Shown here in pieces: positions 17,176 through 64,000 of a DNA stretch of 64,000 nt. The first letter of the stretch is position 1. Every line of letters begins with the position of its first letter. Made by a program: the position numbers and the translations under genes. The notes below the pieces were generated by a model that was given only the letters and a program-made list of their open reading frames with translations, did not search any database and had not been told where the DNA came from. The stretch comes from Pontixanthobacter rizhaonensis (GTDB taxonomy: Bacteria > Pseudomonadota > Alphaproteobacteria > Sphingomonadales > Sphingomonadaceae): positions 1,477,001 to 1,541,000 of the forward strand of contig NZ_JABCRE010000002.1 in assembly GCF_012972675.1 (NCBI RefSeq), in the 5' to 3' direction.

Positions 17176-17215
17176 TCCCGCCTGTCCGCCATTGCGAGAT
17201 GAGCCGTAAGTCCGT

Positions 17216-18553
17216 ATGGGCGCGGCGATGAAACAAACACCTCCCCCCAAGACCTACCGTGTCAAAAGCTTTGGCTGTCAGATGAATGTCTATGATGGCG
17301 AACGCATGGGCGAAATGTTGGCTGAAAAAGGCATCACAGAAGCGCCAGAAGGCGAAGATGCCGATCTGGTGGTGCTCAATACCTGCCACATTCGCGAAAA
17401 GGCAGCAGAGAAAGTCTATTCCGACATTGGCCGGCTGACCAAGGGTAAAACGCAGAAGAAAGCCCCGATGATCGCAGTGGCTGGCTGCGTCGCTCAGGCA
17501 GAGGGCGAAGAGATTATGGCCCGCGCGCCATCGGTTTCGATGGTTGTCGGCCCGCAAGCCTATCACCGCTTGCCCGCGATGATTGATGATGCTGTGTCCG
17601 GCAAACGCTCTACCGATACCGATATGCCAGCCGATGCGAAGTTTGCCGCATTGCCGCAGCGCCGCAAATCAGCGCCATCAGCCTTCCTGACTATTCAGGA
17701 AGGCTGCGATAAGTTCTGTACCTACTGCGTTGTGCCTTATACGCGCGGTGCGGAAATCTCGCGCCCTTATGCGGCGCTGGTGGATGAAGCGAAATTGCTG
17801 GTCGAAGCGGGTGCCAAAGAAATCACCCTGCTAGGGCAAAATGTCAGTGCGTGGACTGGTGAAGATGGCAAAGGCCGCAAGCTGGGCATGGCTGGCCTTA
17901 TTCGCGAGATTGCGAATATCCCTGAGCTTGCCCGCATCCGGTACACAACCAGTCATCCAGCCGATATGGATGACGAGCTGATAGAGACGCATGGCGAGAT
18001 TACCAAGCTGATGCCCTATCTGCATTTGCCTGTCCAAAGCGGCAATGACCGCATTCTGAAGGCAATGAACCGCAGCCATACGGCAGAGAGTTACCTGCGC
18101 CTGCTGGAGCGGTTCCGTGCTGCGCGGCCCGATCTGGCTTTGTCGGGCGACTTCATTGTCGGCTTCCCGGGGGAGACTGACGCCGAGTTTGAAGACACTT
18201 TGAAAATCGTCGACGAAGTGCGTTATTCGCAGGCCTATAGCTTCAAATATTCGCCCCGCCCGGGCACGCCAGCCGCGACGATGGATAACCAAGTCCCGCT
18301 CGAAGTGATGGATGAACGCTTGCAACGGCTGCAAGCCTCGCTCCGCCGCGATCAGCAGGCCTTTAATGACGCAAGCGTTGGTAAAACCTGCGAAGTGCTG
18401 GTCGAACGCAAAGGTAAGATGGACGGGCAATGGCTGGGCAAATCACCATGGTTGCAATCGGTTCACTTCACCGGCGATGTGCAAATCGGTGATCTAGTCA
18501 CCGCAGAATTGATCCAAGCAGGGCAACAGTCTCTTGGTGGACGCTTGGTCTAA
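17216..18553 (+). CDS. miaB: tRNA-2-methylthio-N6-dimethylallyladenosine synthase MiaB
   Basis: 445-aa radical-SAM methylthiotransferase that modifies A37 of tRNAs reading UNN codons. Domains in order: N-terminal UPF0004 domain with the auxiliary-cluster cysteines in KSFGCQMNVYDGERM, VVLNTCHIREKA and VAGCVAQAEG; radical SAM core with the CX3CX2C motif in GCDKFCTYCVVPYTRG; C-terminal TRAM domain ending TAELIQAGQQSLGGRLV. Length is normal. Start at 17216 or at the in-frame ATG at 17228. Confidence 0.96.
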   Translation: MGAAMKQTPPPKTYRVKSFGCQMNVYDGERMGEMLAEKGITEAPEGEDADLVVLNTCHIREKAAEKVYSDIGRLTKGKTQKKAPMIAVAGCVAQAEGEEIMARAPSVSMVVGPQAYHRLPAMIDDAVSGKRSTDTDMPADAKFAALPQRRKSAPSAFLTIQEGCDKFCTYCVVPYTRGAEISRPYAALVDEAKLLVEAGAKEITLLGQNVSAWTGEDGKGRKLGMAGLIREIANIPELARIRYTTSHPADMDDELIETHGEITKLMPYLHLPVQSGNDRILKAMNRSHTAESYLRLLERFRAARPDLALSGDFIVGFPGETDAEFEDTLKIVDEVRYSQAYSFKYSPRPGTPAATMDNQVPLEVMDERLQRLQASLRRDQQAFNDASVGKTCEVLVERKGKMDGQWLGKSPWLQSVHFTGDVQIGDLVTAELIQAGQQSLGGRLV

Positions 18554-22155: not shown

Positions 22156-23061
22156 CTACTCTGCCGGGCTATTTGGCGCATGAACACATAGAATCGGTAC
22201 AGCTACAATACCGGGGTGTTTCTTATCGGCATCACCGCATTCGACTTCCGGTTTTCGGATCGCGTTTGGTTCTATGATCGCTAGAGCTTGCGCATCTCCA
22301 TAGGCGGCGATCCATGTCAGGCAATCTGCCAGTCGCCGGATGCTATGTTTCTGCCCTGCACTGGCAGAAGGATTGCAATTGATCACCAGCACATCTGCTG
22401 CCGGGGGCGCTTTATACCGCCGCAGCACCCGCAAAAACTCACCCCGCTCAGCCACAGACAGCCGATCCATATCGTTGGTCATCGGGTCGCCGCTAAAGAA
22501 GGGTGAGGTGTTGAACACGAATGCCTTTACACCCGGATTGTCGATGGAAATTTGTGTGGCGAGCGCACCACCCAGCGAGTGGCCGGTTACTTCGATGGCA
22601 ACGTGCTGATAGTCTTCAGCATCGAGCCGGGCGCGTTCAGCCGCATAGACCATCCGTGCACCTTCGCGCTGCCCATCCCCTAAAGATCCTGAGAAAATAT
22701 CACTGGTGGAGCCGAACTCGGTCCCGCGAAATGCGATCACCCGGGCTACCAGATCGCCGCGCTTGCCGTCTTTGACTGTGTGCCGGTCAAAGACCGAATA
22801 TGCCAGGCCGCTCTCGTCATTATCGGCGATGTCGCGGGGGAAGAATACCAGCGGTAAAGCTGGATAGGTATCATCATCTTGATACGCATTGCTGCTGAGC
22901 ATGGCATAGCCATAGCTTTGCACAGCCGCATCGCGCACGAAATCACACCACCCGCCGGGTTCCGTCCGGCACGGGCTGCGTGATTGGGTAATATCGGGAT
23001 AGGGCGTGATACAGCCGCTGAGCATCAAAGCGCCCATCAGCCCCACGAGATGGCGGATCAT
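22156..23061 (-). CDS. Lipoprotein with class 3 lipase-like alpha/beta-hydrolase fold
   Basis: 301 aa from the ATG at 23061. The N-terminus is a lipoprotein signal (HLVGLMGALMLSGC, lipobox LSGC), so the mature protein should be anchored in a membrane facing the periplasm or surface. The fold-3 lipase core shows VIAFRGTEFGSTSD and the nucleophile elbow VTGHSLGGALATQ, with FVFNTSPFFSG after it. Candidate acid and His residues lie in the C-terminal third but cannot be fixed by eye. Likely an esterase or phospholipase; substrate unknown. It lies 21 bp downstream of the cyclophilin gene and is probably co-transcribed with it. Confidence 0.82.
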   Translation of the reverse strand: MIRHLVGLMGALMLSGCITPYPDITQSRSPCRTEPGGWCDFVRDAAVQSYGYAMLSSNAYQDDDTYPALPLVFFPRDIADNDESGLAYSVFDRHTVKDGKRGDLVARVIAFRGTEFGSTSDIFSGSLGDGQREGARMVYAAERARLDAEDYQHVAIEVTGHSLGGALATQISIDNPGVKAFVFNTSPFFSGDPMTNDMDRLSVAERGEFLRVLRRYKAPPAADVLVINCNPSASAGQKHSIRRLADCLTWIAAYGDAQALAIIEPNAIRKPEVECGDADKKHPGIVAVPILCVHAPNSPAE

Positions 23062-23082
23062 CACCCTATCCCGATATCAAAT

Positions 23083-25094: not shown

Positions 25095-25489
25095 TGCCGC
25101 TGAACATCACCAAAATCGCCTATCGCAGCGAGAGCATTCATACGCTTAGGGCGTGGCTGGAAAGCCAGCCGCAGGGCGCGTTAATGACCACCCGCTATCT
25201 GCCCAAGCGTCATGAAGAAATGAAAGGCGGATCTTTATATTGGATCCACGATCATTCCATCTGCGCCCGCAGTCCGATTATGGAATTTAGGCAGACCCAA
25301 GACGGCCGCTGGAATATCATTCTCGAACCGCGCCTGATTTTGGTGGAGGCTCGGTATAAACGGGCCCATCAGGGCTGGCGCTATCTTGAAGAAGACAAAG
25401 CGCCCGCCGATTTGGCAGCCGATGCGCAAACCGGCGATGTCTTGCCGGGTAAATTACAGAACAAGCTTAGGAAGCTGGGACTGGTGTAG
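25094..25489 (+). CDS. DUF1489 family protein
   Basis: 131 aa, start fused to the mgtE stop (TAATG). Recognised as DUF1489 by LNITKIAYRSESIHTLRAWL, TTRYLPKRHEEMKGGSLYWI, HDHSICARSPIMEF and YLEEDKAPADL. This is a small conserved alphaproteobacterial protein of unknown function, probably cytoplasmic. Its 3' end overlaps the convergent LuxR-type gene by 23 bp. Confidence 0.88.
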   Translation: MPLNITKIAYRSESIHTLRAWLESQPQGALMTTRYLPKRHEEMKGGSLYWIHDHSICARSPIMEFRQTQDGRWNIILEPRLILVEARYKRAHQGWRYLEEDKAPADLAADAQTGDVLPGKLQNKLRKLGLV

Positions 25490-27218
25490 CGCCCGCCACG
25501 CTCGCCGTGCGTGCTACTTCCGCTATCCGCGCAAAAACCAGCTCCGGTTTTTGATACAGCAATAAGTGCCCGGTTTGCGGCACCGCTTCAAAAGAGAAAT
25601 AGTCATTATCGCGCGCAAAGCCTTCCAACACGCGCGGAGTGTAATGCAGATTGTGCGCGCCGACCAAATTGACCGTTTCCGGACCCGCATTGGCAAACAA
25701 ATGCCCCCAATCGCTGGCAACTTGCATCAGCTCCCGCGTGAACGGTTCATACCCTTGACGCGTGGTCGTTTTGAAAGCGGCGCGAAAAAGATGTTTCACA
25801 TCATCACGGTCGGTAAAGCGCAAATCATACTCGTTGCTGTCCAAGAACTTGTGAATATATTCCTGATCATAACCCGTATCGACCTTGGCCAGAGCGCCAT
25901 GCACCAAATACCTGCCAATTGACGGAAATGCGCGCATCATCTGCATCCGCATCCTTTCGGTCATATCGAGCAACCGCACCTGTCTGCCGGAAATAGTAGG
26001 CAGAACCGGATTAAGGTTGACCACCCCGGTGATGCGATCAGGCATTTCTACTTTGCAAGCCAGCGCTATGATAGCCGAGGTAATATGTCCGACCGTGACG
26101 CAGCGTTCGATACCAAGATGATCAAGTAACGCCCGTGCATCTGTGCAAGCGGTCTTGATATTATCAACCGGGCTGCCAGGTGCCGCTGTGGTGCTCGCCA
26201 TTCCTGGCCGCCAGGGCACAATCAGACGCAGATTGTTATCTTCCACCGCATCCCACATTTCATCAATCATCGCGCTGCCACCAAGCAGTGCCGGATGCAT
26301 CAGGACAGGCAATCCATCCGGATCGCCGATGATGTCATATTCAAGCACTCGATCATCACCAAGCTTGAGTATGTGCGTTTGCTGCCGCGGATCTTCAGCC
26401 AATACCGCCGCTTCGGCTTGCGGAATGTTCCGGAAATTGGCGAACCCAGAATATAGACATGCCAGCTCGGTTTGCGACCGGAGGCCAAGCTTCCCCAGCA
26501 GCATCTTGGTCTGATGCCGGACTGTTTCAACAGACCGTCCTCGCTGCTTGGCCAGCTCGGTTAGCTTGATACCTGTCACAACTGCTTTTGTGATTTCCAG
26601 CTCTACCGGCGTTAATTTGAACAAGGTGCGAAACCGTTCGGCGATTTCGGGAAACCAGCTGATATGGATTGTCGAGACGTGCCCCACCACATCGCCATTG
26701 CCGTCATGTACTTTAGTAAGGGCAAGCTTTGCCTGCTCGTCCCCGCCCAGCACATCCATTGCGAAAACCATGGCGACTTCCTGCAATTGGTGAGTTTCCA
26801 ACCCCTCCAGACGTTCCAGCAAGGCAGACCGATGTCCGGGCTCAAATTGATCCTTATCAGGCCGTTCACCGGGTTTGAGGCCAAGCATAGATTGCGCCAT
26901 CCGGTTGGCATGGATCACACGGCCATCAACCCCGATCAGGGCTGCGGGACTGCTATCGGCATCGATCATTTTTAGGGAATAGCGCGCCGTATCAGACGGG
27001 CGTCCCTGCGATTCGAGCAGAGCCTGGGCATTCTCAAAATGCGGCGCCAAAGAGGCGAAGGCTGTTTCCACTGCCTGCCCGTCGACCACTTCCCCGGTTT
27101 CCTCCACAAACTCGGAATAGCGATCCTGCAATGCGCCGAGCATTTCCTCATACCGAAACGGCCCTACAGAAAGGGAATATGCGATCTTGATGATCTCTTC
27201 GTCGCTGGTTCCGCGCAT
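25467..27218 (-). CDS. PAS-LuxR HTH-alpha/beta-hydrolase-fold regulator with degenerate catalytic triad
   Basis: 583 aa, single frame, ATG at 27218 with AGGGG five bases upstream. A PAS-like region spans about residues 80-190 (ALIGVDGRVIHANRMAQSML, then GDVVGHVSTIHISWFPE). A LuxR/FixJ helix-turn-helix spans about 203-258 (LTPVELEITKAVVTGIKLTE, SVETVRHQTKMLLGKLGLRS). From about 285 to the end there is an alpha/beta-hydrolase fold (YDIIGDPDGLPVLMHPALLG). The nucleophile elbow reads VGHITSA (376-382), putting Ile379 where Ser is expected; the acid position reads Asn523 in LVGAHN; only the late His551 (QTGHLLL) is intact. So the hydrolase part probably binds a ligand rather than hydrolyses it. 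It could still be an enzyme with unusual residues. Divergent from two secreted unknowns. Confidence 0.85.
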   Translation of the reverse strand: MRGTSDEEIIKIAYSLSVGPFRYEEMLGALQDRYSEFVEETGEVVDGQAVETAFASLAPHFENAQALLESQGRPSDTARYSLKMIDADSSPAALIGVDGRVIHANRMAQSMLGLKPGERPDKDQFEPGHRSALLERLEGLETHQLQEVAMVFAMDVLGGDEQAKLALTKVHDGNGDVVGHVSTIHISWFPEIAERFRTLFKLTPVELEITKAVVTGIKLTELAKQRGRSVETVRHQTKMLLGKLGLRSQTELACLYSGFANFRNIPQAEAAVLAEDPRQQTHILKLGDDRVLEYDIIGDPDGLPVLMHPALLGGSAMIDEMWDAVEDNNLRLIVPWRPGMASTTAAPGSPVDNIKTACTDARALLDHLGIERCVTVGHITSAIIALACKVEMPDRITGVVNLNPVLPTISGRQVRLLDMTERMRMQMMRAFPSIGRYLVHGALAKVDTGYDQEYIHKFLDSNEYDLRFTDRDDVKHLFRAAFKTTTRQGYEPFTRELMQVASDWGHLFANAGPETVNLVGAHNLHYTPRVLEGFARDNDYFSFEAVPQTGHLLLYQKPELVFARIAEVARTASVAGATPVPAS

Positions 27219-27263: not shown

Positions 27264-27321
27264 TTATCGCTCGCAGCGATAAAGCTGTAGCGGGTTCGAA
27301 CCCATACCCCAACTGGGGTAT
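27264..27321. promoter_or_regulatory. Three consecutive dyads in the divergent PAS-LuxR / secreted-protein promoter region
   Basis: Within 160 bp between divergent starts lie three perfect inverted repeats: TTATCGCT-CGC-AGCGATAA (27264-27282), GGGTTCGAACCC (27292-27303) and, directly adjoining, ATACCCC-AACT-GGGGTAT (27304-27321). The second resembles a T-arm but no tRNA can be folded around it. The sizes suit binding of helix-turn-helix dimers, and the neighbouring LuxR-type protein is the obvious candidate. Binding is inference. Confidence 0.55.
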
Positions 27322-27378
27322 TCGATTAAAAAACACCGCTGACTATTGGGCCTCCAGCACTAACTGGGGAGTACCAAA

Positions 27379-28182
27379 ATGAAATACATTCTACCAATCG
27401 CCGCAGGCCTGATGGTCGCCACAACTATGGCTTCCGTTGATGCCAATGCAGGGCCATTCGACAAACTGCGCAAGGCCGCCAAGAAAGTCGAAAAAACCGC
27501 AGAAGACGTCAATGACGCTGCCGAAGCGGTTGACGATGTCAGCAAAGGACGGGTGCCCGGGACAAGCCGCAGCAGCCGCAGCGCCTCTCCGCGTACGGCC
27601 CGCGCTGAAGGCCATGCCGGCGTCGCTGGTCCAACACCTGCCAAATTCGCATCTGCCACCACCTGCGCCAATATCGGTCTCAGCAATGCCTTTGTTGCAC
27701 GGGCTGGCGACTATACCTTCAGCCAGGGTATCAGCACTCAAAAACGGACCGGTCTTTTGGACCGCAAAAAAGTAACGCCAAGCGGCTGCACTTTCCCTGC
27801 AATGGGCGTGTTTGATGTGCTTTATGTCGAGGTTGATAAGACGGCATACAATCGCGGTCGCTACGCCCTGCAATGCGTTTCCTATGACGGCAGCGAACAG
27901 CTCAACAACACGAATGCGCCGCCGGAAAATAACTACAAAGGCAAAGACGTGATGCTGCACACAGGTAATTCCACCGGTTACACGCCGACGGCAACCGGCA
28001 GCAATTCCTCCCGCTCCGGCCAATACCAAAAGGTTCTGGCTGCACGCGGAAAGGAAATGGTCACATTCAACATGCCCGGCCTGCACACTGACTCTGGCAC
28101 AGACTTCTACTGCCAGCACTTTGACAAGAACACCGGCAAGAGCGCGCTGGCCTTCACCTTCCGCCGCGGACCAACCGGCTAA
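27379..28182 (+). CDS. Secreted protein of unknown function with N-terminal helix and four-Cys C-terminal domain
   Basis: 267 aa; ATG at 27379 with GGGGAG eight bases upstream. A Sec signal peptide (YILPIAAGLMVATTMASVDA, cleavage near ANA-GPF) is followed by a charged amphipathic helix (DKLRKAAKKVEKTAEDVNDA, residues about 28-58) and a Ser/Arg-rich linker. The C-terminal domain (from about residue 90) contains four cysteines (TTCAN, SGCTF, LQCVS, YCQHF) that could form two disulfides. I recognise no family. Divergent from the PAS-LuxR gene and 83 bp upstream of another small secreted protein, so the three may form one regulated unit. A long antisense frame over it is a shadow. Confidence 0.75.
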   Translation: MKYILPIAAGLMVATTMASVDANAGPFDKLRKAAKKVEKTAEDVNDAAEAVDDVSKGRVPGTSRSSRSASPRTARAEGHAGVAGPTPAKFASATTCANIGLSNAFVARAGDYTFSQGISTQKRTGLLDRKKVTPSGCTFPAMGVFDVLYVEVDKTAYNRGRYALQCVSYDGSEQLNNTNAPPENNYKGKDVMLHTGNSTGYTPTATGSNSSRSGQYQKVLAARGKEMVTFNMPGLHTDSGTDFYCQHFDKNTGKSALAFTFRRGPTG

Positions 28183-28265: not shown

Positions 28266-28571
28266 ATGAAAACTGTAATTTCTGCTCTCGGCGCAATCGC
28301 ACTGTGTGTTGGTACAGCACCCGTCGCAATGGCTCAGGCCAGCTCTTCAACTGTCAGCAAAGACGGCGCATGCCCCAAAGGCTTCAAAGCATCAGGCAGC
28401 ACCTGCAAATCAAGCAGCAAAGTTGCCATCGTAAAGCTGGGCTCATGCCCAACCGGCTTTAGCGCATCCGCCAATTACTGCGTTGGCGACAAAGGTGACT
28501 ATGCTGAAGTCCGCAGCGGATCATGTTCCAGCGGTACCAAAACTTCGGGCAAATATTGCGTGAAAAAATAA
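28266..28571 (+). CDS. Small secreted Cys-repeat protein of unknown function
   Basis: 101 aa; ATG at 28266 with AAGGA upstream. Signal peptide (TVISALGAIALCVGTAPVA, cleavage near AMA-QAS). The mature part is three tandem units of about 20-26 residues with the consensus G-x-C-P-x-G-F-x-A-S-x-x-x-C: DGACPKGFKASGSTC, LGSCPTGFSASANYC and a shorter SGSCSSGTKTSGKYC. That gives six cysteines, one pair per repeat, so three small disulfide loops are likely in the periplasm or outside. Lys-rich, basic. No family recognised. A strong terminator follows. Confidence 0.78.
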   Translation: MKTVISALGAIALCVGTAPVAMAQASSSTVSKDGACPKGFKASGSTCKSSSKVAIVKLGSCPTGFSASANYCVGDKGDYAEVRSGSCSSGTKTSGKYCVKK

Positions 28572-52336: not shown

Positions 52337-55300
52337 CTATTCAGCGGGTTCCAATGCCTCTCCGGCAAAGCACGCTTCGTCTCCCGGTGCGCATTCATCC
52401 TCACCGATCCACAGATCGTCATTACCGGCACCAGTGACGGGTTCATCAATCAGCAGGTCCCGTTCGCGCTCCGGATTTTGCCGGAATTCAACGACGATCG
52501 ACGCCAGACTATCGGGCAGCGGTGTCGCTGGATCGATCTGCGTATCAATCAATTCCTGGATCGTTCCATCATCTGGATCGGCAGGAGCATTGGGGTTGGT
52601 TGGTGTGGTTGGATTTGTCGGTGTCGTCGGGGTCGGGGCACAGCTCGCTGGATTGGCGATCACGCACCCGTTGATGGTCGACGCTGTATCAAACGAAGAT
52701 GGAACGCCCGTGACCGCGATAGCGTCAATGCCGGTATTGCCGCCAACCACGCCATTGATCACAATGGCAGCCGCAGGATCCGTCGCACTGATCGACAAAT
52801 CATTGGCTGTAATTCCGGCTCTATCAGCAAAGTCGGTGCCGGTGCCGCTATTTTGAATAAGCACGCTGCCATCGACATTCAGTGTCACGCTGTCTGCCTG
52901 AATAAATCCATCCGGACGGGCATTATCGACTTGCCCCAAACGAATATCGATATCCGCAACACTGCTGCCGGCGATATCCGCTTCCGCGGTGCTGCTGATA
53001 GCTGTGATTGTGCTGGCTGTGATACCCAAAGCACCGGCGATATTGCCTGCCGTGTCTTGCAGACGAATATTCCCTGCGTCTGTGCCTATAGCTACGGTAT
53101 TAGCGGCATCGATCCCGACGAAGTTATCCGGCCCAGCCCCGGTGACGGTCATATTTCCGTTCACAAAAACTGAATCATCCGCTTCCAAGAATAGCCCACC
53201 AAAGTTGGCGATGTTTCCATCTGTCGGCGTGCCGGCTCCAGCCGCGACGGCGACGTCCAGAACATCAACAGTGATATTCCCGCCACCATTAGGTCCGGCA
53301 TTGGCAGAAATTGTCAGATCGCCGCCGCTATGGATGCGGGAGAACTCGTCATTATCCAAAGTGAACCCGATTGACGTGGCCCCGGGCAGTCCGCCCAAGG
53401 CGATATCCCCATCGGTACTGATCACGATCTCGTCAGTCGTATCGCTACGCCCAAGCGCGCCTGATGTGGCAATATTCATATCCGCAGAATTGGTCGCAAT
53501 CGTCCGTCCTGCTGCGGTCGCCTGCAAGTCAATAAGATTACCGGCATCCATAGTAAGATCGCCCGCCGCATTCACATCTGAACTGATAACAATATCGGTT
53601 GCGGCAGTGATCGATATGTTTCCGCCATTGGTTGTCGTAATCTGCTGCGTTCCTTGGAACCCAGGCGGCGGCGCAGTGGTAAGCGGGCCAACCGCAGCGT
53701 TGACTGCAGTGGACCCACCGCTGACCAGAGTAATATTTCCAGCAGCATTCGCCCCTTGAACATCCAGATTACCGCCAACGGTGATATCGATATCTCCGCC
53801 TGTTGCGATGGCTGCGACACTCAAATCATCTGAGGCGTTGAGCAATATTTCCTCAGCCTCCGCTTCAACCAAGCCACTCGCAGATATATTGCCTGCAATG
53901 GCGATTGCGCCATCCGCAGCTTCAAGCAGAACAGTGTCCCCGGTCAGAGTGTCAATCGTAACACCGGTAACGCCTTCAATCTCGATCCGCCCTTGTGCCT
54001 CCACATCTGTCACCGCAACCATTCCGGTTGTATTCACATCAATGCCGACACCAGCAACGAGGCTTTCTGCGGTAATCGCGCCGCCATTATCGCCCGACAG
54101 GACAATGTTTTGTCCGGCATCAATAGAATTGCCTGTAATCGCTCCGGCAGAGACAAATCCGGCATCGCCTGTGACCGTCACATCGCGGTAAACAACATCG
54201 CCGCCGCTGCTAATCGAGGCATCGCTGGCGGATATCACATCACGGATCGTGACATCATCGCCCGCATCAATCTGCAATGCACTGGTGCCAGCAGTGACAT
54301 CATTGAACGTCGCAGTCGTGCCAGCATCGATATTGATGCCCAGCCCGGAAATAAGATCATTGGCAGAAACGCTGCCGTTCTGGCCGCTGATGGCAAGGGT
54401 TGTGCCCGCTTGAACATCGCCAGTACCAATAACATTCAGTCCAGCAGATATTGTCGCGGCCTGATCCGCCACGACACTCGTAAATGCAATGCTTCCCCCA
54501 GCATCGGCCTCAAAATCGCCGCCTTGCACATCGGCGGTGGTGAAGGTCAGATCGTTGCCTGCATTCATTTGCAAGCTACCGGCAGCCTCAATCGCGCCCG
54601 TAACAATATTGCGGAAAGCAGTGACAGAACTTGCCCCCAGCCCGGCTGTCAATGCGCCTCCATTGATATCGCCAAGGCCCGCAAATGGACTGCTGGCAAG
54701 TGTCGGATCGGTCGCATTCAGAGTGATCGTTGTGCCCGCAGTCAGCGCGTCAAAGGTGATTTCTGTCGCGGTGACATCGATCAAACCATCCGCTGCTGAG
54801 GTACCCAAATTGGCAACCACGGCATCAATCACAATGTCGGTTCCGGCACTGAGGCCAGCATTGCCGACAGTTAAGACACCCGCCGTTGCAATATCAAAGT
54901 CAGTACCCGCTGTGGCGCTATCCAGAGTGATCCCATCGTCCCCGCGCAGCCGTACAGATGTGCCCGCGTCAATTACACCGCCGCGCACAGTATTGATTGC
55001 ATTGAGATCGGCCGCACCGGTTGCCGTGACAGTTCCAAAGGCTATGTCCGCCGCACCGATTGTGACATCGGTCCCGCTGAGCGTAACAACATCAACTGCG
55101 CTGGCATCAATATCCAGCGTACCCGTGGCGGTAATAGCAGTTCCGCCAATCGCCCCGCCGGAAGTAAAGTCGATATTACCGCTGGCAGAGGCTCGTCCAA
55201 GATTGATTGCACCGCCTGCATTGACTGTGAAATCGCCGCCCTGAGCGTCCAGATCACCGAAACCGACAGAGCCGGCAGCCGTCAAGTCAATGGCACCTGC

Positions 55301-58300
55301 CACTGTGACCGCGCCATTGCCATCAATGTTGCCGGCTGTCGCTGTCAGCGACAAATCACCGCCAATGGCCCCGTTATTGAAAGTAACCGCCGCGCCAGTG
55401 ATGCTGGTGTCGCCGCCGCTGATCGCATTGACGAGCGATGGATTGCCACTGGCAGTTATGGTGATGTCGTTCGCCGCATCGACTATGCCGAAGCTGGCAT
55501 CGCCCGCTGTGGCATTGGCAGAGACTGAACCGTCCGATGTGATATTGCCAACAGCAATCGCTTGCGCTGTCAGCGTGACATCATCATCGCTGTCAATGTC
55601 GCCATTGCCATTATTGGCACCGATGGTCCCGTTCAGCGCGCTCAGCGTGATCGCATTGGGTGATGTGATGCTGTCGAACAGGATATTTGCTGCGCTGGTG
55701 AAAGCGATATTGGTGCCGCTGGCTTCACCAACGGCGATATCACCGCCATCGAGATCAAGCGTACCGCCTGCATCCAGATCACCGCCATTGATTGCACCAT
55801 TTGCGTTAAACAGGATGTTTCCGCTGGCAACCGCGCCGGTAAAGTCGATGGCGCCCCCTGCATCAGCGGTAAAGTTGCCATTTTGCGCTTCCAGACTGCC
55901 AAAGCCGATATCACCGGAGGCATCCAGATCAATCGCGCCGCCCACAGTGACTGTCCCTGTTCCGGCCAAATCTCCGTCTGTAGCATCCAAGGTCAAATTA
56001 CCGCCGACATCGCCGCTATCCAACGTCACATTGTCGCCGCGTAGCGTAACGAATGTCCCGCTTGTGGCAGAGCCAACATCGACATCGCCGGTTGCTGTCA
56101 CTGTCGTTCCGAACAAGGAACCTGTCGCGCCGATCACAGCGTCACCGCCCGTCGCATTCACAATAACCGATTGAGCGGTCGATCCAGCGCCATCAATATC
56201 GATGCTGGCCGCGGTCAAACGGTTGAGGCTGGCAGAAGTGAAATCACCCCCGGTCAATGCGCCGTCTATATTTACGGTCAGCAAGCCATTGCTGCTGGCC
56301 CCGGCAATATCCGCATCACCGCCAACCGTCACGGTCATACCCGGACTGGTCGCTTGCGCGTCCAGATCACCGGAAGTCAGATTACCATCTACGGTGAAGG
56401 TCAAACTACCACTGGAATTGGCATCGCCAACTTGAGCATTTCCGGCGGTGATCAGCGTGATACCGCGCCCTGTTAGAGTATCAACATTGGCATTGGCGGC
56501 AGATGTCACATTGACCCCGAACGCGTCTGCGGTGACATTTCCGGCCACCACATCGCCCAGGGTGGATTCAAGCAGTGCAAAGCCCCCTACGGAACGAACA
56601 TCACCGACATTCAGACTGTCGCCTTCAATATCGACCTGCCCCGCACCTGTAACGTTGCCCCCGCTCACCGCGCCGCCATTAATGGTCACCAAACGGCTGC
56701 CATTGATGCTGGTGTAAGCGATATTGCCGCCAGCGATCAGGAACACATCTGCGACGGTGCCGGTGGTGGTGACTGCGCCAGTGACCAGGTCGCCGCCCGC
56801 ATCAAAACGTGCGCCGAAACCCGTCGCGGTGACATCACCGACAGTTACATCACCGGTTGCGTCAAATGTGGCGACTGCACCTGCTGACACAGTGCCAACC
56901 GTCAGATTGCCCGCGGTTGCATCGACATCAAGGCTGCCACCGGCATTGATATCCCCGACACTGATGAAGCTGCCCTGCAAATCCATCAGGCTGGCCGATG
57001 TCAGCGTTCCGCCGGTGATCCCGCCTGCTTGTGCATCCAGCCTTAAGAAACGTGCGGCAGTGAGATCGGTAAAGCCGACATTATCACCGACCAGATCAAT
57101 ATCGTTTGCACCACTTGCGGTGCCAAGGAATACATCCCCAGCGGCAGTGTTGCTCGCGATCAATGTTATGCTGCGGGTACCGTTAATGTTGATGGCGCCG
57201 AAGCTGTTATCACCGCCAGCGACAATCCGCACATTCAAGTTGCCAAGATCATATTGATCTACATTGATGCTACCGGGTACTGCATATTCAAATTCTGCCG
57301 CACCGCCAACACCGGCAACAGTCGTCAATTGACCGTCCGTATCGATCAGAGCCAGATTGATATTCTGCCCCACATCAATGCCGATATCATTGCTGGAAAT
57401 GAGCGAGCCTGTGCCGAGCAAGCTGCCAGCGGCGTCGATCAAGATTTGGTCACTGGTTACAACCGCATCACGCAGATCGATATCACCTGTCAGGCTGGTG
57501 ATCAGGAACTGGTTGGTGGCTGCAAGTGCCGTCGGAATTCCGTCCGTGCCCATCACGATATTGTCGCGAATGGTGATCAGAATATCATCAGCGGCCACGC
57601 TGGCTTGTTCAACCGTCAGGCTGATCACGTCATTATTGCTGTTCTGCCCAATCGCGATTCTGTTGTCTGACGAAATTGAACCGAGGCATACTGTGCCTTC
57701 CAGACAATTCGCGCTGAGCAAACCGGCATCATTGCTTTGGGGATCACCTGCGTTGGGTGCATTGTCGATATCAATCGAAACAGAGCTTGCGTCGATTGAT
57801 CCACCTAGCCCATCCACCGCATTCGCCGTCATCACAACCGCGAAGTCGTTCGCGATGATATCACCTGCAGCAACGATTGACGCAATCGGTGTCGCGCCAT
57901 TGCCTAGCAATTGCCCGGTATCAATCAATTCGCCGGCAGCGAGTGTCAGATTATTTCCGCCACCAAACGGATTGGCCGTATTTGCCGGACCAGCTGCATT
58001 GGCTCCAGCCTCAATCCGTGCGCCATTTTGGACAATAATATCATCGCCAGTGAAGACAGTAATCCCGTTATCGGAAATAACGTTCGCGCCGTTCACGAAT
58101 GTGGCATTGCCGCCCGCATTGATATTTACAAAACCGGTTGAGGTGACATCGCCCGTAATACTGGCGCTGAAGCTCGGGTCGAACTCGTCGATACTGCCAC
58201 CAGTTTGCAAACCCGCCTGAACCGTCAGGCCGCTAAAGACCGTGACCCCCGCACCGCCAACGAAAGCGGTCGGCGCTCCTGAAACAGTCGCGTTGTTGAG

Positions 58301-61300
58301 AATGACATTCTGTCCGGCATTAATCCGCACATCGCCCACACCGCGTACATCATGCGCTGTGATGTTGCCCAGCACATCTAAAGACAGAGTATTGTCGCTA
58401 CTGATGATCGCATTATCTGTGGATGTGAAATTGCCGTCTGCTTGCGCGTCAAAGCGGCCCGCACTGTCAATAGACAGCACATTGCCGCCATTGTTGGTAT
58501 GGGTGATGATGATATTGGCGTCTGTGTCCAGCAACGTTGTACCGCCAACTATCAGTTGGCCGTTACCGTCAAAATTATAAACAATATCGCCCGCAACATT
58601 GATCGCAACATTGCCAGTCACCGTGGTCGCGCCGCTGCCGCCATTCATGACAAAACCGCCACCTGCGGCAGCAGCTGAGCCGGACGCATCAACATTCAGC
58701 GCCGCAAAACTCATCACGCCCAGCGGATCGGTCGACAGATCATTCATAGTGACCAGTCCGCCGAGATCGCTGCCGGAGACCAAACCACCACCCCCCGCGC
58801 CATTGGCGAGCAAGGTAAGAGTGCCAAAATTCATGATCCCGGGACTGCCCTCGAGCACTTCGACCAGCGGACTGCCGCCCACGCCGTCGCCGCCATTTCC
58901 GCGTGCGCCAATTACGACTGTGCCGTCATTACCGCCCACGCCGCCATCGCCGCCCGTACCGACTGCAGTCAGAGAGACGTCTGCCCCATTGATTGTTCCG
59001 CCAACCGCGCGCAGCGTTGGCGATCCGCCCGTGCCGGTGCCACCGATGCCGCCATTGCCAGCCAATCCGCCAGCAGCCATATCAATGCCGCCACCGGCAC
59101 CGCCGTCACCGCCAGTACCATTGCTAGCCAACACAAACGGCACAGAGCCGCCCGCGAAATCGATTGTCGAACCGCTATTGGCTTGAGTTGTCAGCGTTCC
59201 GCCGGTTGCATCACCACCCGCGCCGCCTACTCCGGCGACACCGCCCGCGAAGTTGCCACCGCCAGCACCGCCGGTCCCGCCAGATGCACTGCTAGTGAGC
59301 GATATTATGGTCGGGTCAAAGTCGAATGTTGCGCCTGCACCGGACAGGGTGAACACCCCGGTTCCCGCGATCCCGCTGCCGCCAGTACCGCCGCCGCCAG
59401 CAGCTATGAGATCATCCCCTTCGCCGCCGGTACCACCTGTGCCGCCAAAACCGCCAGCATCAATGAACATGCTGGTCAAAGACGACAACACTGCGCCTGT
59501 CCCCGTGACATTGACAGTGGCCGTGCCCCCTTGGCCAAGCCCGCCAAGACCGCCTTGCGCAGTGATACCACCTCTGCCGCCAGTCCCGCCATTGGCCGAA
59601 CTGCTCAGACTGATGCTGACAAGGTTGGAGATAGTACCAGCCAGATCGACCGTAACGTCACCGCCCTGCGCAGAACCGCCAGCTTCACCGGCTTCGCCGT
59701 CGGCACCCTGACCACCGCGCCCTGCTGTGCCAAATGTGCCAGCCGTAATACTGCTCACGGCAAAGCTCGAAGTAGCGTCAGAGGTAATAGTCACTGTGCC
59801 GCCAGTGGCGTTGCCGCCTACCGCGCCGGGTGATCCAAATGCGGGGTCGCCATTGCCGCCAGTCGCAGATGCTTCTGCCAGTAAGGTACCGAACACACCG
59901 TTGGCCCCAGTGAGCGTCAAGGCAACCGTGCCGCCTTGCGCATTACCGGCAGAGGCGGTTCCTGATCCTGCGCTGGCCGATGCATCAAGCCGCGTGAAGC
60001 CGGTTACCCCGATCGTTGCATCATTTGTCGCCGTTAGAGTGACGTTGCCCCCGGTGGCATCTCCACCCGTAGAGGCGGTTCGCGCATCTGATGCCGCTTG
60101 AGCGCCTGCGGTAACCGTGAGACCCGTTGCCACATTGATGGCCGTGTCGACACTGTCGGCAGAGAACAATACGCTGCCCCCAGTGGCCGAGCCATTGGCG
60201 CCAAGCGCGCCCAAATCGCCGAAGGAACTGGTACCACCATTGCCGCCCAGTGCGCCGATGGCGTCTGCGCTGAATTCCGCTTCGGTACTAACCGATGTTA
60301 CCGTGACAACACCGGCAGTTTGCGCCAGCACTTCGATCCGTCCGCCCGTCGCGGAACCCGCATTTCCCCCATCACCGGTCAAGCCGCCGGAGAAATCGCT
60401 GCCGCCGTCGCCGCCGCGACCACCGGTGCCATCTGCGCTAATACCGCCATCAACCAACAGGCCCAGCCCACCGCCATCGCTTGCAATAATCTGGATCAGA
60501 CCAGCCGTTCCGTCACCGCCGGCACCGCCATCCCCCGGGCCGGTTCCGGCAGAGAATGGTGAATTGCCATCGGCCCCTGCACCGCCCTGACCGTTCGCTC
60601 TGATGGTACTGGCAAGTACACTCTGTAATCGCCCATCAACGCCGTTGACATCAAGGATGGAGGAACCACCAGTGGCCACTCCGCCATTGCCGCCACTGCC
60701 ACCTTCTCCGTCAGAGAAGCCGCCATCGCCGCCAATGCCCGAGGAATCGATCGTAATACTGGTCAGGCTGACATCCACGTCATTGACGTTAAGCCTGCCG
60801 GTTCCGCCGGTACCAGCACCGCCATTTCCGCCGTCAAGCCCGGTGCCGCCTTGGCCGCCTTCGCCGGTCGCTTCAATGACATAGGTTGGGTCGGTGGCAT
60901 CATCTTGATTGAGGTTGATGGTCGCGATCCCGCCAATACCATCTCCACCGACACCCCCATTGGCGGCCGCATCGCCGGTGCTGAAGCCAAAATTATCACC
61001 ACCATCGCCGCCATCGCCATTGGCCGAAACGGTCAAAGTACCAAACGTGATCGCGCCGCTTCTGCTGTTGAATTCAGCAGATCCAGCCGTCGCAGTACCG
61101 CCATCGCCCGCATATTGTCCGGGCGCACTAACAGAACCGAAAGTCGGCCCAGACCCCCCTCCGCTGCCAGCAAATGCGCTTGCATCAACAATAACATTAC
61201 CCGCCGCAATGGTCGCAGTACCGGTCAGGTTAAATACCGCGCTGCCACCAGTGGCTTGCCCGCCTTGGCCGCCCTCGGTACCTTCACCAAATCCGCCATT

Positions 61301-64000
61301 TCCGCGACTGAAATCGCCGCCGCCATTGGCAGAAACGGTCAAGTCATTGGTCACGGTTAAAGAGCCGGAAAGCGCATTGAAGGTCGCGCTGCCACCCCTG
61401 GCATCGCCGCCATCACCGCCGCGATTATTTGTATCAATGCTGGCCGATCCGCCGACACCAGCGATGCCGTCTGCACTGACATCAAGACTGGTCATTGTTG
61501 CGACAGTACCATCAAGATTGAAGACAACTGTACCGCCGGTTCCGTCGCCGCCGCGCCCGGCCTTGGGCAAACCACTGCTGCCGGGGCCATTCATGGCGGC
61601 CACATTGCCGGAATTAACCGTAAGCCCGCCGGAAAGCGGTGCTACGGTCAGATTGGTGCTATCTCCGCCGGGTCCGCCTTGTCCCTCGGCGCTAATAGAT
61701 ACTGCGCCAGCAGCGAATGTGCCGCCGGTCAGATCAAAGGTGACAGCGCCTGCAATACCGGTGCCGCCATCTCCATCAAAACCGTTGAATCCGCCGAATC
61801 CGCCTTCGCTAAAGGAAAACACAACCCCATCGCTGGTCGCAGACAAACGATCAAAATTCAGAGCGGCCGTGTCCCCTGAAAGAGCGAAACGGACACTGCC
61901 GCCCCGGCCAATACCTGGGTTGCCATCTGCGTCGACGCCTGTCCCGCCCAATCCGGTTGAATTGGTGTTGAGCCGGTCCGTGAACGTGATGGTACCATCA
62001 GTTGCCTGCAGCAAAATATTGCCGCCCGTACCGTTGCCGCCGTTCAAATCCTGCCCTGTGGAACGCGCGTTCAGATCGCCGCGGCCGCCAGAAATCGTAG
62101 CGCCATTTTGCGATGTTAGTGTGATATCGCCAGCAACGAAATCGTTACCGCCCCCGGCACCGAACGATGCCGCACCACTTGGTGATGCAATGGTTTCCAG
62201 ATTGATACTGCCGAAGGAAATCGATGAATCGTCTGCCAAAATAGAGATCGATCCAGCGTAATTATCAGCTGTTTGAGACCCATCTTGAGCAACCGCTTGA
62301 ACCCGCAATTCGTTATCTACGGTCAAGCCACCAGCCGCGCCTGTTCCAGTTGCCGTGACATTGACAACCGTGGCCCCGGTATCCGCGACAATTCCCGCGG
62401 TTGACGTGATAATAGTCAGATCATCCGTGATCCTGAGGAGTGTGTCAGTGCCACTGACTGCAACATCTACCGTTCCGCGTACAGCATCACCGGCGATGGA
62501 GACGCCCACCGCATCAAAACTGCCACCAGAAATCGTCTCTGCATCAACGAATGTCGTACCAAATGTGTGTGTTCCGGCAGTCACATCAATATTTGCAGAA
62601 CCACCGGTAGCAGTGGTCACTTGAGCAACCGTATTGTCAGTTCCGGACGACCCTTCTGCCCGTACACTCAGGAACAGCGACCCAGCAGTGGCTTGTCCGC
62701 CTGCAAGGTCAAGAACAACCGATCCGCCTGTGCTTGTATTGCCAAGCAAACCGGAACCGCCAGCTGTGTCCTTTCCTTCTTGGGCAGAAACCCCGCTGGC
62801 ATCCAAGGTCAAAGAACCGGTCACATCGAGAGTACCCGACGTGACAGACAGATTGACCTGCCCGCCAGTGGATGATCCGTTTTGGTTTTCGCCTTTGCCG
62901 CCTTGCCCTGATGCATCCAGCAGCAGACTGCCGCCAACATTGAGCGCACCGTCATTTTCAACGGTCAGGGTGATTGTACCGCCAGCAGCATCTTCGCCTA
63001 TGCCTGTGCCGCCATTATTGCGGAAAGTCGCAAAATCATCTCGTCCATTGCCGCTGGCATCAATGATCAAATTGCCACCAATATTGATCTGACCGGCATC
63101 GGAAGGGGCCGGAGGTGGAGGCGGACCGCCAGCTGAATTACCCTGTTCATTGCTGGCAGTAACGGTAATCGTTCCGCCGCTGGCACCAGCTGCTTCGGTG
63201 CTCAAAACAAGATCACCAGCGATATCGATGGTGCTGTTATCTTGCACCCCGATGACAATCGCGTTGTCTCCGGTGATGCTCAGATCATAATCGCCGCGCG
63301 CATCGCCGCCGGCTGTGAGCCTCGAATATTCCTGCGTCTGCGGGTTCAACCCGCGCTGGGTGAGATCGACGGTGTCACTGGCATAGACTTCTACATCCGA
63401 GGCGAGTGTCGCATTTTCGATCGCCACGGACGCATTGGCTACTGCGGTATCGCGTTCAATAGTGATACCGGGATTATCCAGCACACCATCCGTGGTGACA
63501 TCGGCACCGGCACTCAGAATAATGGTGCCATTATCGGTCCGCGATGCCATCGTGGCAGCGTCGAAACCAACCGACCCGCCAACCAGCATGGTCATGGCTT
63601 GGTTCTTGGGAACAGCAACCATGTAAATCGCGTGCCGATCGGCATTGACGATGCTGCCGTTGCCATTGACCGAAGCCTGACTGGCCGCTCCGCCAGTGGT
63701 TCCAGTGTGTACTATTCCGTTAGCGTCTTCACTGCCCAACCCGACGGCGATGTCGAACAAACCGTTGTTAATAGTCAATTGCGCTTGTTCGGCTGCTACA
63801 TAAGCAGCGGCGCCATTTACCCGAACCGTACCGCCCTGTTCAATCCGCGGCGCGACCACAGCGACATAGCTGTTTGTATTGTTGGCATTAATGCTGGCAC
63901 CATTTTCGATAACCACCGCGCTATCAGCGCTGCTGGCGCCCAAAAAGTTCATTTGGAAGCCGCCGCTATCGATGCTGTCCAACTGGCTGGTCGAAAGGAC
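52337..64000 (-). CDS. Giant filamentous-haemagglutinin-like adhesin (TpsA-type), 5' part beyond window
   Basis: 3,887 codons are open to the window edge; the N-terminus, including signal and first part of the TPS domain, is missing. The first 120 visible residues resemble the end of a haemagglutination-activity domain (SYVAVVAPRIEQGGTVRVNG, AAEQAQLTINNG). Residues about 630-1745 are an extremely Gly-rich repeat array, and about 1800-3750 are shorter beta-helix repeats (GDVTVGDVTATGFGARFDAG). Then come a Thr/Pro/Asn linker (PTPTTPTNPTTPTNPNAP) and a short acidic C-terminus with DECAPGDEACF. There is no C-terminal beta-barrel, so it is not a classical autotransporter; secretion by a TpsB partner outside the window is likely. 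A large surface adhesin or matrix protein. Confidence 0.85.
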   Translation of the reverse strand, partial: VLSTSQLDSIDSGGFQMNFLGASSADSAVVIENGASINANNTNSYVAVVAPRIEQGGTVRVNGAAAYVAAEQAQLTINNGLFDIAVGLGSEDANGIVHTGTTGGAASQASVNGNGSIVNADRHAIYMVAVPKNQAMTMLVGGSVGFDAATMASRTDNGTIILSAGADVTTDGVLDNPGITIERDTAVANASVAIENATLASDVEVYASDTVDLTQRGLNPQTQEYSRLTAGGDARGDYDLSITGDNAIVIGVQDNSTIDIAGDLVLSTEAAGASGGTITVTASNEQGNSAGGPPPPPAPSDAGQINIGGNLIIDASGNGRDDFATFRNNGGTGIGEDAAGGTITLTVENDGALNVGGSLLLDASGQGGKGENQNGSSTGGQVNLSVTSGTLDVTGSLTLDASGVSAQEGKDTAGGSGLLGNTSTGGSVVLDLAGGQATAGSLFLSVRAEGSSGTDNTVAQVTTATGGSANIDVTAGTHTFGTTFVDAETISGGSFDAVGVSIAGDAVRGTVDVAVSGTDTLLRITDDLTIITSTAGIVADTGATVVNVTATGTGAAGGLTVDNELRVQAVAQDGSQTADNYAGSISILADDSSISFGSINLETIASPSGAASFGAGGGNDFVAGDITLTSQNGATISGGRGDLNARSTGQDLNGGNGTGGNILLQATDGTITFTDRLNTNSTGLGGTGVDADGNPGIGRGGSVRFALSGDTAALNFDRLSATSDGVVFSFSEGGFGGFNGFDGDGGTGIAGAVTFDLTGGTFAAGAVSISAEGQGGPGGDSTNLTVAPLSGGLTVNSGNVAAMNGPGSSGLPKAGRGGDGTGGTVVFNLDGTVATMTSLDVSADGIAGVGGSASIDTNNRGGDGGDARGGSATFNALSGSLTVTNDLTVSANGGGDFSRGNGGFGEGTEGGQGGQATGGSAVFNLTGTATIAAGNVIVDASAFAGSGGGSGPTFGSVSAPGQYAGDGGTATAGSAEFNSRSGAITFGTLTVSANGDGGDGGDNFGFSTGDAAANGGVGGDGIGGIATINLNQDDATDPTYVIEATGEGGQGGTGLDGGNGGAGTGGTGRLNVNDVDVSLTSITIDSSGIGGDGGFSDGEGGSGGNGGVATGGSSILDVNGVDGRLQSVLASTIRANGQGGAGADGNSPFSAGTGPGDGGAGGDGTAGLIQIIASDGGGLGLLVDGGISADGTGGRGGDGGSDFSGGLTGDGGNAGSATGGRIEVLAQTAGVVTVTSVSTEAEFSADAIGALGGNGGTSSFGDLGALGANGSATGGSVLFSADSVDTAINVATGLTVTAGAQAASDARTASTGGDATGGNVTLTATNDATIGVTGFTRLDASASAGSGTASAGNAQGGTVALTLTGANGVFGTLLAEASATGGNGDPAFGSPGAVGGNATGGTVTITSDATSSFAVSSITAGTFGTAGRGGQGADGEAGEAGGSAQGGDVTVDLAGTISNLVSISLSSSANGGTGGRGGITAQGGLGGLGQGGTATVNVTGTGAVLSSLTSMFIDAGGFGGTGGTGGEGDDLIAAGGGGTGGSGIAGTGVFTLSGAGATFDFDPTIISLTSSASGGTGGAGGGNFAGGVAGVGGAGGDATGGTLTTQANSGSTIDFAGGSVPFVLASNGTGGDGGAGGGIDMAAGGLAGNGGIGGTGTGGSPTLRAVGGTINGADVSLTAVGTGGDGGVGGNDGTVVIGARGNGGDGVGGSPLVEVLEGSPGIMNFGTLTLLANGAGGGGLVSGSDLGGLVTMNDLSTDPLGVMSFAALNVDASGSAAAAGGGFVMNGGSGATTVTGNVAINVAGDIVYNFDGNGQLIVGGTTLLDTDANIIITHTNNGGNVLSIDSAGRFDAQADGNFTSTDNAIISSDNTLSLDVLGNITAHDVRGVGDVRINAGQNVILNNATVSGAPTAFVGGAGVTVFSGLTVQAGLQTGGSIDEFDPSFSASITGDVTSTGFVNINAGGNATFVNGANVISDNGITVFTGDDIIVQNGARIEAGANAAGPANTANPFGGGNNLTLAAGELIDTGQLLGNGATPIASIVAAGDIIANDFAVVMTANAVDGLGGSIDASSVSIDIDNAPNAGDPQSNDAGLLSANCLEGTVCLGSISSDNRIAIGQNSNNDVISLTVEQASVAADDILITIRDNIVMGTDGIPTALAATNQFLITSLTGDIDLRDAVVTSDQILIDAAGSLLGTGSLISSNDIGIDVGQNINLALIDTDGQLTTVAGVGGAAEFEYAVPGSINVDQYDLGNLNVRIVAGGDNSFGAININGTRSITLIASNTAAGDVFLGTASGANDIDLVGDNVGFTDLTAARFLRLDAQAGGITGGTLTSASLMDLQGSFISVGDINAGGSLDVDATAGNLTVGTVSAGAVATFDATGDVTVGDVTATGFGARFDAGGDLVTGAVTTTGTVADVFLIAGGNIAYTSINGSRLVTINGGAVSGGNVTGAGQVDIEGDSLNVGDVRSVGGFALLESTLGDVVAGNVTADAFGVNVTSAANANVDTLTGRGITLITAGNAQVGDANSSGSLTFTVDGNLTSGDLDAQATSPGMTVTVGGDADIAGASSNGLLTVNIDGALTGGDFTSASLNRLTAASIDIDGAGSTAQSVIVNATGGDAVIGATGSLFGTTVTATGDVDVGSATSGTFVTLRGDNVTLDSGDVGGNLTLDATDGDLAGTGTVTVGGAIDLDASGDIGFGSLEAQNGNFTADAGGAIDFTGAVASGNILFNANGAINGGDLDAGGTLDLDGGDIAVGEASGTNIAFTSAANILFDSITSPNAITLSALNGTIGANNGNGDIDSDDDVTLTAQAIAVGNITSDGSVSANATAGDASFGIVDAANDITITASGNPSLVNAISGGDTSITGAAVTFNNGAIGGDLSLTATAGNIDGNGAVTVAGAIDLTAAGSVGFGDLDAQGGDFTVNAGGAINLGRASASGNIDFTSGGAIGGTAITATGTLDIDASAVDVVTLSGTDVTIGAADIAFGTVTATGAADLNAINTVRGGVIDAGTSVRLRGDDGITLDSATAGTDFDIATAGVLTVGNAGLSAGTDIVIDAVVANLGTSAADGLIDVTATEITFDALTAGTTITLNATDPTLASSPFAGLGDINGGALTAGLGASSVTAFRNIVTGAIEAAGSLQMNAGNDLTFTTADVQGGDFEADAGGSIAFTSVVADQAATISAGLNVIGTGDVQAGTTLAISGQNGSVSANDLISGLGINIDAGTTATFNDVTAGTSALQIDAGDDVTIRDVISASDASISSGGDVVYRDVTVTGDAGFVSAGAITGNSIDAGQNIVLSGDNGGAITAESLVAGVGIDVNTTGMVAVTDVEAQGRIEIEGVTGVTIDTLTGDTVLLEAADGAIAIAGNISASGLVEAEAEEILLNASDDLSVAAIATGGDIDITVGGNLDVQGANAAGNITLVSGGSTAVNAAVGPLTTAPPPGFQGTQQITTTNGGNISITAATDIVISSDVNAAGDLTMDAGNLIDLQATAAGRTIATNSADMNIATSGALGRSDTTDEIVISTDGDIALGGLPGATSIGFTLDNDEFSRIHSGGDLTISANAGPNGGGNITVDVLDVAVAAGAGTPTDGNIANFGGLFLEADDSVFVNGNMTVTGAGPDNFVGIDAANTVAIGTDAGNIRLQDTAGNIAGALGITASTITAISSTAEADIAGSSVADIDIRLGQVDNARPDGFIQADSVTLNVDGSVLIQNSGTGTDFADRAGITANDLSISATDPAAAIVINGVVGGNTGIDAIAVTGVPSSFDTASTINGCVIANPASCAPTPTTPTNPTTPTNPNAPADPDDGTIQELIDTQIDPATPLPDSLASIVVEFRQNPERERDLLIDEPVTGAGNDDLWIGEDECAPGDEACFAGEALEPAE
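58750..62100 (-). repeat. Gly-rich repeat array within the adhesin gene
   Basis: The translated array alternates beta-rich units (for example GGTVVFNLDGTVATMTSLDV and GGSAVFNLTGTATIAAGNVI) with glycine runs (GGNGGAGTGGTG, GGAGADGN), with a period of about 60-70 residues. DNA shows many near-repeats of GCCGCC/CCGCCA on the plus strand. Its complement gives long proline-rich frames that are artefacts. The limits are approximate. Confidence 0.7.

Follow-up and report, generated by a model that had tools for sequence, protein, structure and literature searches.

The 64,000-nucleotide stretch of Pontixanthobacter rizhaonensis DNA analysed here (the window; positions 1,477,001 to 1,541,000 of contig NZ_JABCRE010000002.1) encodes a 583-amino-acid (aa) protein, P0001, that carries a PAS-like segment, a LuxR-type helix-turn-helix (HTH) and an alpha/beta-hydrolase-fold domain in a single chain. 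P0001 is probably (roughly 0.6) a one-component transcription activator of secreted proteins in which a pseudo-hydrolase would serve as the ligand-binding domain, and it most likely turns on the adjoining secreted-protein gene, A, through a conserved DNA site. Four features read from the sequences point to this: the chain is intact, most of the family has lost the catalytic triad, a conserved site recurs at constant spacing, and A is linked to the regulator.

The P0001 reading frame was intact from ATG to stop on the minus strand (25467-27218), and its gene was present as a single copy in its own 2.79 Mb genome. The initial annotation had placed a PAS domain, a LuxR-type HTH and a hydrolase in this one chain of 583 residues, and Pfam saw all three, each below its gathering score: PAS_8 on residues 88-119 (E 0.0012), GerE on residues 202-255 (E 0.0052) and Abhydrolase_1 on residues 304-426 (E 3.2e-5). 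Among 30 family members at E 0.05, Abhydrolase_1 was matched by 23 and GerE by 16 (best 2.8e-7), so the GerE-type HTH was detectable by profile, while each PAS model matched only one or two of the 30. The closest relative, L002, a full-length protein from another genus with 40% identity, passed the Abhydrolase_1 cut-off (28.5 vs 25.8 bits) and carried a PAS_9 match below the Pfam cut-off (E 0.0026). The HTH region of P0001 matched RcsB, NarL and EL222 chains in a PDB sequence search (8a5r for EL222, E 0.021), and residues R226, T232, Q236 and K243 of the HTH were invariant in the 30-row family alignment. Judged by its sequence, P0001 is a LuxR/NarL-type (GerE) HTH protein with an alpha/beta-hydrolase fold. 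Placement of the HTH between PAS and hydrolase had at first been taken for an unusual order; in the fused relatives, HTH ahead of hydrolase was the usual order across the family.

A profile of the 30 relatives covered solved alpha/beta-hydrolases along nearly the full length of the domain, with 9wlv as the best solved-structure match (E 6e-32, profile positions 280-549). An AlphaFold model of the domain, made with one distant relative added, was usable only for approximately residues 277-401 (mean predicted local distance difference test, pLDDT, 47.5), and a full-length single-sequence model of P0001 was of no use (mean pLDDT 40.1). Compared with alpha/beta-hydrolases, the low-confidence domain model reached a Foldseek E of 2e-7 and VIA-align Z scores of up to 13.1.

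In the family alignment the motif VGHITSA set Ile379 on the nucleophile column, GAHN set Asn523 on the acid column, and TGH set His551 on the base column, and these were the three positions assigned in the initial annotation. An active site was scored as a Ser, Cys or Asp nucleophile with an Asp or Glu acid and a His base; P0001 has Ile, Asn and His. Within the usable part of the AlphaFold model, residue 379 sat at the nucleophile elbow, flanked by a strand at model positions 97-101 and a helix at 104-115. The assignments of 523 and 551 rest on sequence alignment because the model was usable only in its N-terminal part. The acid column was supported by the 9wlv profile match, in which the family Asp column faced an Asp; in a single-sequence match to 1ehy the nucleophile and base agreed and the acid Asp faced Ala521, two residues off. 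Ser381 had been raised as an alternative nucleophile. It was rejected, being two residues past the nucleophile position and Gly in L002. As first proposed, the hydrolase domain of P0001 is very probably catalytically dead, as in most fused relatives.

Relatives of the regulator were found in 25 of 298 same-family genomes (its own included) by a single-protein search at E 1e-20, in 46 of the 298 by the 30-sequence profile at E 1e-30 and, in a phylum-wide sample of 398 genomes, in 44 by the same profile at E 1e-25. These counts are lower bounds because the searches score few candidates per genome, and some profile matches were hydrolase-only genes or fragments. One scan of viral contigs returned no relatives. 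Fused chains, defined by profile cover from before position 200 to after 540, numbered 79 and came from several families of the phylum (P0001's own duplicate removed, near-identical pairs kept). Aligned alongside them were six stand-alone hydrolase relatives and one hydrolase from a split pair, encoded apart from its regulator; a 277-aa remnant (L118), the regulator half of the split pair and at least one stand-alone match (G169) were left out of this alignment. At the split locus (L048; G026:C1:301951-303620) regulator and hydrolase were separate matches overlapping by 4 bp, and the hydrolase carried Ser-Asn-Asp.

Ser-Asp-His was kept in four of the 79 fused chains (L071, L075, L088 and L139) and in all six stand-alone relatives in the same alignment run. 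A survey of homologues for the lost Ser, proposed at the outset, gave Ser at the nucleophile column in 21 fused chains, with Gly in 15, Gln in 11, Ala in seven, Val in five, Arg in four, His in three, and others; this column was gapped in two rows, and placements in distant rows were alignment-dependent. The base column was His in 14 of the 79 chains, P0001 and L002 included. On a quick tree from which the triad columns had been dropped, a minimum of 11 changes was needed for Ser/non-Ser in the nucleophile column, the same minimum for His/non-His in the base column, and a minimum of five for the intact triad (stand-alone rows included, changes counted without direction). P0001 and L002 formed a pair with an SH-like approximate likelihood ratio test (SH-aLRT) value of 100, carrying Ile-Asn-His and Val-Asn-His, respectively. 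Because the triad is rare in fused chains and many changes are needed on the tree, the alignment indicates that the fused family has kept its hydrolase domain while losing catalysis, repeatedly or early.

Gene A lies divergent from the regulator gene in the window, with B as the presumed co-target. Neither A nor B had a match reaching a Pfam or NCBIfam cut-off; B had a CC-like match (PF04942, E 0.0012) below cut-off, and no convincing PDB relative was found for A (best E 0.092). In a crude open reading frame (ORF) comparison of 16 picked family loci of 15-19.5 kb, the window apart, a secreted-looking protein A was encoded beside the regulator in eight loci and B was present in four (L091, L093, L097 and L102). 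A profile search found A in 12 of the 298 same-family genomes, one copy each, and all 12 were among the 46 genomes with regulator-profile matches (hypergeometric 4.8e-11). The gap between A and the regulator was 114-704 bp between match ends in all 12 genomes, one of the partners being a remnant. The two genes were on the same strand with A upstream in eight genomes, divergent in three and convergent in one.

Two further observations concerned the arrangement of this block. At L118 (G249:C5) the regulator beside A was the 277-aa remnant, and a B-like start ran toward the last hydrolase part in a deletion-like manner; A and its site were kept despite the loss. The window gene at 17210-18550 has relatives directly beside the regulator in five loci (L091, L094, L097, L101 and L102); because it lies approximately 7 kb from the regulator in the window, the A-B-regulator block may have moved.

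A 20-bp palindrome with the core CCA-NN-TGG occurred once in each of the 12 A upstream regions and ended 49-63 bp before the chosen start codon. In a pattern search the CCANNTGG site was carried once by all 12 A promoters. Over 2000 single-base shuffles, the core was found in a mean of 1.0 of the 12 regions and in a maximum of five. Site columns averaged 1.31 bits (approximately 1.1 over the 14 columns outside the search pattern, by hand sum), while flank columns averaged 0.08 bits over 60 upstream and 0.24 downstream; by this difference in information content, divergence has affected the flanks and spared the site. The second base of a -10-like element, an A, was common to 11 of the 12 promoters. 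If this A is the -11 base, the palindrome is centred at -42.5 and its last bases, ATTC, lie on the -35. No ordinary sigma-70 promoter was found before A in a consensus scan, a result that fits, as weak evidence, an activator-dependent promoter. The region first put forward for reporter assays, 27264-27321, overlaps the operator-like site at 27304-27323. A second perfect inverted repeat, TATCGCT-CGC-AGCGATA (window 27266-27282), was seen by eye between this site and the regulator start; it may belong to the promoter of the regulator gene or form a hairpin.

A weight matrix made from the 12 A sites was applied, with a score cut-off of 15, to operator-clade loci and to loci from other clades, with similar totals of bases scanned (294,091 and 265,592, respectively). 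Five of the eight operator-clade loci outside the training set had a site scoring above 15, located 54-66 bp before ORF starts. The sites preceded a gene with an A-like N-terminus (L043, 22.1), a 178-aa frame whose later part was B-like (L094, 24.5), a small secreted-looking protein (L099, 16.9) and a PKD-repeat protein (L021, 21.0). L096 had two sites, one before a regulator (28.0) and one before a PKD-repeat protein (21.5) that also contained an autotransporter domain. In other clades the matrix matched in two of 59 loci, L064 and L135, the latter scoring 15.3 with no ORF at the right distance. In L064 (G703), which encodes a more distant fused regulator (Gly-Asp-Gln), the palindrome scored 19.4 and lay 55 bp before a 265-aa ORF; because this locus of another clade has a similar palindrome, this kind of site may predate the operator clade.

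A strict form of the pattern gave 15 matches in the 298 genomes and none with a reversed control. Twelve of the 15 were 54-66 bp before a start, namely that of A (10 matches), of a regulator in G239 (one) and of an unlinked PKD-repeat protein in G092 (one). The G092 match was far from the two regulators of that genome, and the protein behind it is a third PKD-repeat protein, with 37% identity to those of L096 and L021. Paralogous regulators (L096:7089-10643 and L094:7064-10631) were seen in both genomes, as a divergent pair in G239 with the site before one of the two, and as a tandem pair in G092.

If P0001 is an activator with a pseudo-hydrolase sensor, it would be cytoplasmic, and the old substrate pocket of the hydrolase would take a small-molecule effector. 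Ligand binding would promote or disrupt an active dimer and so alter the placement of the paired HTHs on DNA. This dimer would occupy the CCA-NN-TGG palindrome, centred at approximately -42.5 and overlapping the -35, and from there would recruit RNA polymerase to transcribe the secreted A and B. In this scheme we infer the ligand and its binding, dimer formation, binding of the regulator to the site, and activation as opposed to repression.

Several points weigh against this reading. The A promoters are orthologous, and their sites are not independent events; six site columns were fixed by the search pattern, and the A sites of G037 and G068 fell outside the strict pattern. The operator clade was drawn from the tree after the first site scan, its loci often exceeded those of the other clades in length (many 15-19.5 kb and the window 64 kb, against approximately 4-5 kb and one of 19 kb), and three operator-clade loci (L041, L042 and L046) had no site in the flanks scanned. 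Strict matches in G095, G192 and G277 had no ORF start at the right distance and looked like chance. In the genome of P0001 itself, allowing up to two mismatches, there were 19 matches (one perfect, one with one mismatch and 17 with two), most of them in an unsuitable layout, against four with the reversed control. A wider regulon in this genome was rejected, as, of the 18 sites examined, only the perfect one was followed at the expected distance by a clearly secreted protein; the match outside these 18, L151, was the reverse strand of the perfect site. On the protein side, the HTH and PAS matches of P0001 were both sub-threshold, both structure models were poor and the pocket was beyond their reach, and six of the 79 fused chains keep a Ser/Cys/Asp nucleophile with Asp/Glu and His and could still be active. 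The ligand, DNA binding and expression in the model for P0001 are likewise what we infer.

Of the other explanations, the one that survives best, although unlikely, is that the hydrolase domain works as a scaffold for protein contact or dimerisation, touching the PAS-like part or a partner protein, as RsbQ does with the PAS domain of RsbP. In the available part of its description, the RsbQ hydrolase contacts the RsbP PAS domain directly (PMC3183031), and the free drift of the triad columns in the fused family is possible if the pocket no longer matters. However, the loci offered no obvious partner gene: the companions of the regulator across rearranged loci were the secreted A and B, and other shared neighbours (in up to six of 17 loci) looked like ordinary synteny of near relatives.

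It is improbable that the domain keeps some other chemistry, such as a His-based one without a serine nucleophile, and works as a slow enzyme-sensor in the manner of D14/KAI2. The structural matches of the low-confidence model included HOD, a dioxygenase of the same fold that needs no cofactor and works with a His/Asp pair, and P0001 and L002 are two of the 14 fused chains retaining the base His, but the other 65 lack it, and in this pair the acid is Asn, the nucleophile is Ile or Val, and Ser381 of P0001 is replaced by Gly in L002. We give equally little credence to the site belonging to another regulator, with the HTH-hydrolase protein merely the neighbour of A. Linkage alone cannot name the DNA-binding protein, and the site-like match of L064 is in a different clade. 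The site nevertheless tracked the operator clade, standing before a regulator gene in L096, before secreted or surface proteins beside regulators in L021, L094, L096 and L099, and before the unlinked PKD-repeat protein of G092, a genome with two such regulators, and the other clades were matched in just the two loci. That the hydrolase domain is a decaying, functionless remnant is very improbable. In favour of decay, the triad columns are highly variable, all three residues are gone from many chains, and one copy (G249) is itself a remnant; against it, the 79 chains hold the domain in frame to near its end, and in the 30-row alignment G298 was invariant and G302, P338 and G550 were conserved at 90% or more.

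An activator with a pseudo-hydrolase sensor would have parallels among known systems. In NrtR and BtAraR, a hydrolase-like Nudix domain with an impaired catalytic motif binds the effector of a one-component regulator, according to the available part of the report (PMC4666351). P0001 resembles these in having an enzyme-derived domain as its presumed effector-binding part. It differs in that NrtR and BtAraR combine the Nudix fold with a winged HTH and are described there as repressors, whereas P0001 would be an activator; kinship is not claimed. RsbQ-PAS systems, as far as the available part of their description goes, have a separate adjacent hydrolase gene with a conserved and required Ser-Asp-His triad, and their outputs are a PPM phosphatase, a histidine kinase or a diguanylate cyclase; the terms "HTH" and "LuxR" occur zero times in the text (PMC3183031). 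P0001 would resemble them in using an alpha/beta-hydrolase with a PAS-like part for sensing, but its hydrolase is in the same chain, after the HTH and without the triad. P0001 may work like NrtR/AraR or RsbQ-PAS and belongs to neither.

The lux box of LuxR-type activators is a 20-bp inverted repeat centred at -42.5, in the available part of PMC3376562. The P0001 site is likewise a 20-bp palindrome with a predicted centre at -42.5. Unlike these activators, P0001 has a hydrolase-like domain in the presumed sensor role, and no acyl-homoserine lactone (AHL)-binding domain was found among its Pfam matches up to E 1. EL222-type proteins have an N-terminal PAS-type domain followed by a LuxR-type HTH and are not known to carry a C-terminal hydrolase; P0001 has a sub-threshold PAS-like segment ahead of its LuxR-type HTH and adds the C-terminal hydrolase domain.

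In plants, D14/KAI2 and GID1 use the hydrolase fold as a hormone receptor, and D14/KAI2 retain catalysis. The initial annotation had drawn this comparison, which stands only as a parallel. D14/KAI2 chains were weak matches of P0001 (E 0.004 and worse), behind bacterial esterases and an epoxide hydrolase. No D14 or KAI2 chain was among the best 60 of 274 profile matches, and no GID1 was among the best 60 of 75 single-sequence PDB matches. With the low-confidence model, a D14 chain (Z 11.5) ranked 28 in a flat structural list, and no GID1 was among its 50 best rows. A special kinship with these receptors was not supported by the sequence matches listed.

RcgR was rejected as a fused relative, as only a hydrolase domain is described for it in the available part of PMC9601222. 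A census of Actinobacteria LuxR proteins contained no word beginning "hydrolase" in its available part (PMC3466318), and no fused LuxR-HTH/alpha/beta-hydrolase regulator was found in the open-access literature among the matches listed. P0001 would be an alpha/beta-hydrolase version of the enzyme-derived one-component regulator, a kind already known.

Table 1. Features of the regulator locus, in window coordinates
Feature	Position	Strand	Basis
Regulator coding sequence (P0001), 583 aa, PAS-like / LuxR-type HTH / pseudo-alpha/beta-hydrolase	25467..27218	-	ORF, Pfam, relatives
PAS-like segment, residues 88-184	26667..26957	-	sub-threshold Pfam matches
LuxR/GerE-type HTH, residues 198-255	26454..26627	-	Pfam, PDB sequence matches, alignment
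Alpha/beta-hydrolase-fold domain without catalytic triad, residues 284-566	25521..26369	-	Pfam, PDB profile, partial model
Ile379 codon, nucleophile position	26082..26084	-	family alignment, partial model
Asn523 codon, acid position	25650..25652	-	family alignment
His551 codon, sole remaining triad residue	25566..25568	-	family alignment
Operator-like palindrome ATACCCCAACTGGGGTATTC, divergent intergenic region	27304..27323	+	upstream comparison, weight matrix; last bases on presumed -35
-10-like element TATTGG, first base 21 bp past site end	27344..27349	+	promoter alignment
Protein A, 267 aa, signal-peptide-like N-terminus (by eye), presumed target gene	27379..28182	+	ORF, alignment, profile
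Protein B, 101 aa, signal-peptide-like N-terminus (by eye), Cys-containing repeats, presumed co-target	28266..28571	+	ORF

Two other genes of the window were recorded. A lipase-like alpha/beta-hydrolase with a lipoprotein-like start (22156-23064) lies 2.4 kb downstream of the regulator; its Lipase_3 match was just above cut-off, and its GHSLGG elbow was intact. On the minus strand, a 3881-aa ORF (52337-63982) runs almost to the window end.

Enzyme folds turned sensors are a recurring theme, and the best-known sensors with the alpha/beta-hydrolase fold are plant hormone receptors. Tentatively, and at somewhat less than even odds, the fused family may represent a common but so far undescribed class of one-component receptors in bacteria. 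In this class the pocket of an alpha/beta-hydrolase would have repeatedly lost its catalytic function and turned into a sensor of small molecules joined to a LuxR HTH, with one clade using CCA-NN-TGG at -42.5 for secreted and surface proteins (A, B and PKD-repeat proteins, one of them with an autotransporter domain). A bacterial family of this size, with its lost triads and its predicted operator and targets, would open the step from enzyme to receptor to direct study: its tree spans chains whose triads are intact, partly lost or wholly lost, and stand-alone enzymes are there for comparison. Because the operator is predicted, ligand screening with a simple reporter would be feasible. Such a receptor class, if true, would be a bacterial counterpart of the hydrolase-derived hormone receptors.

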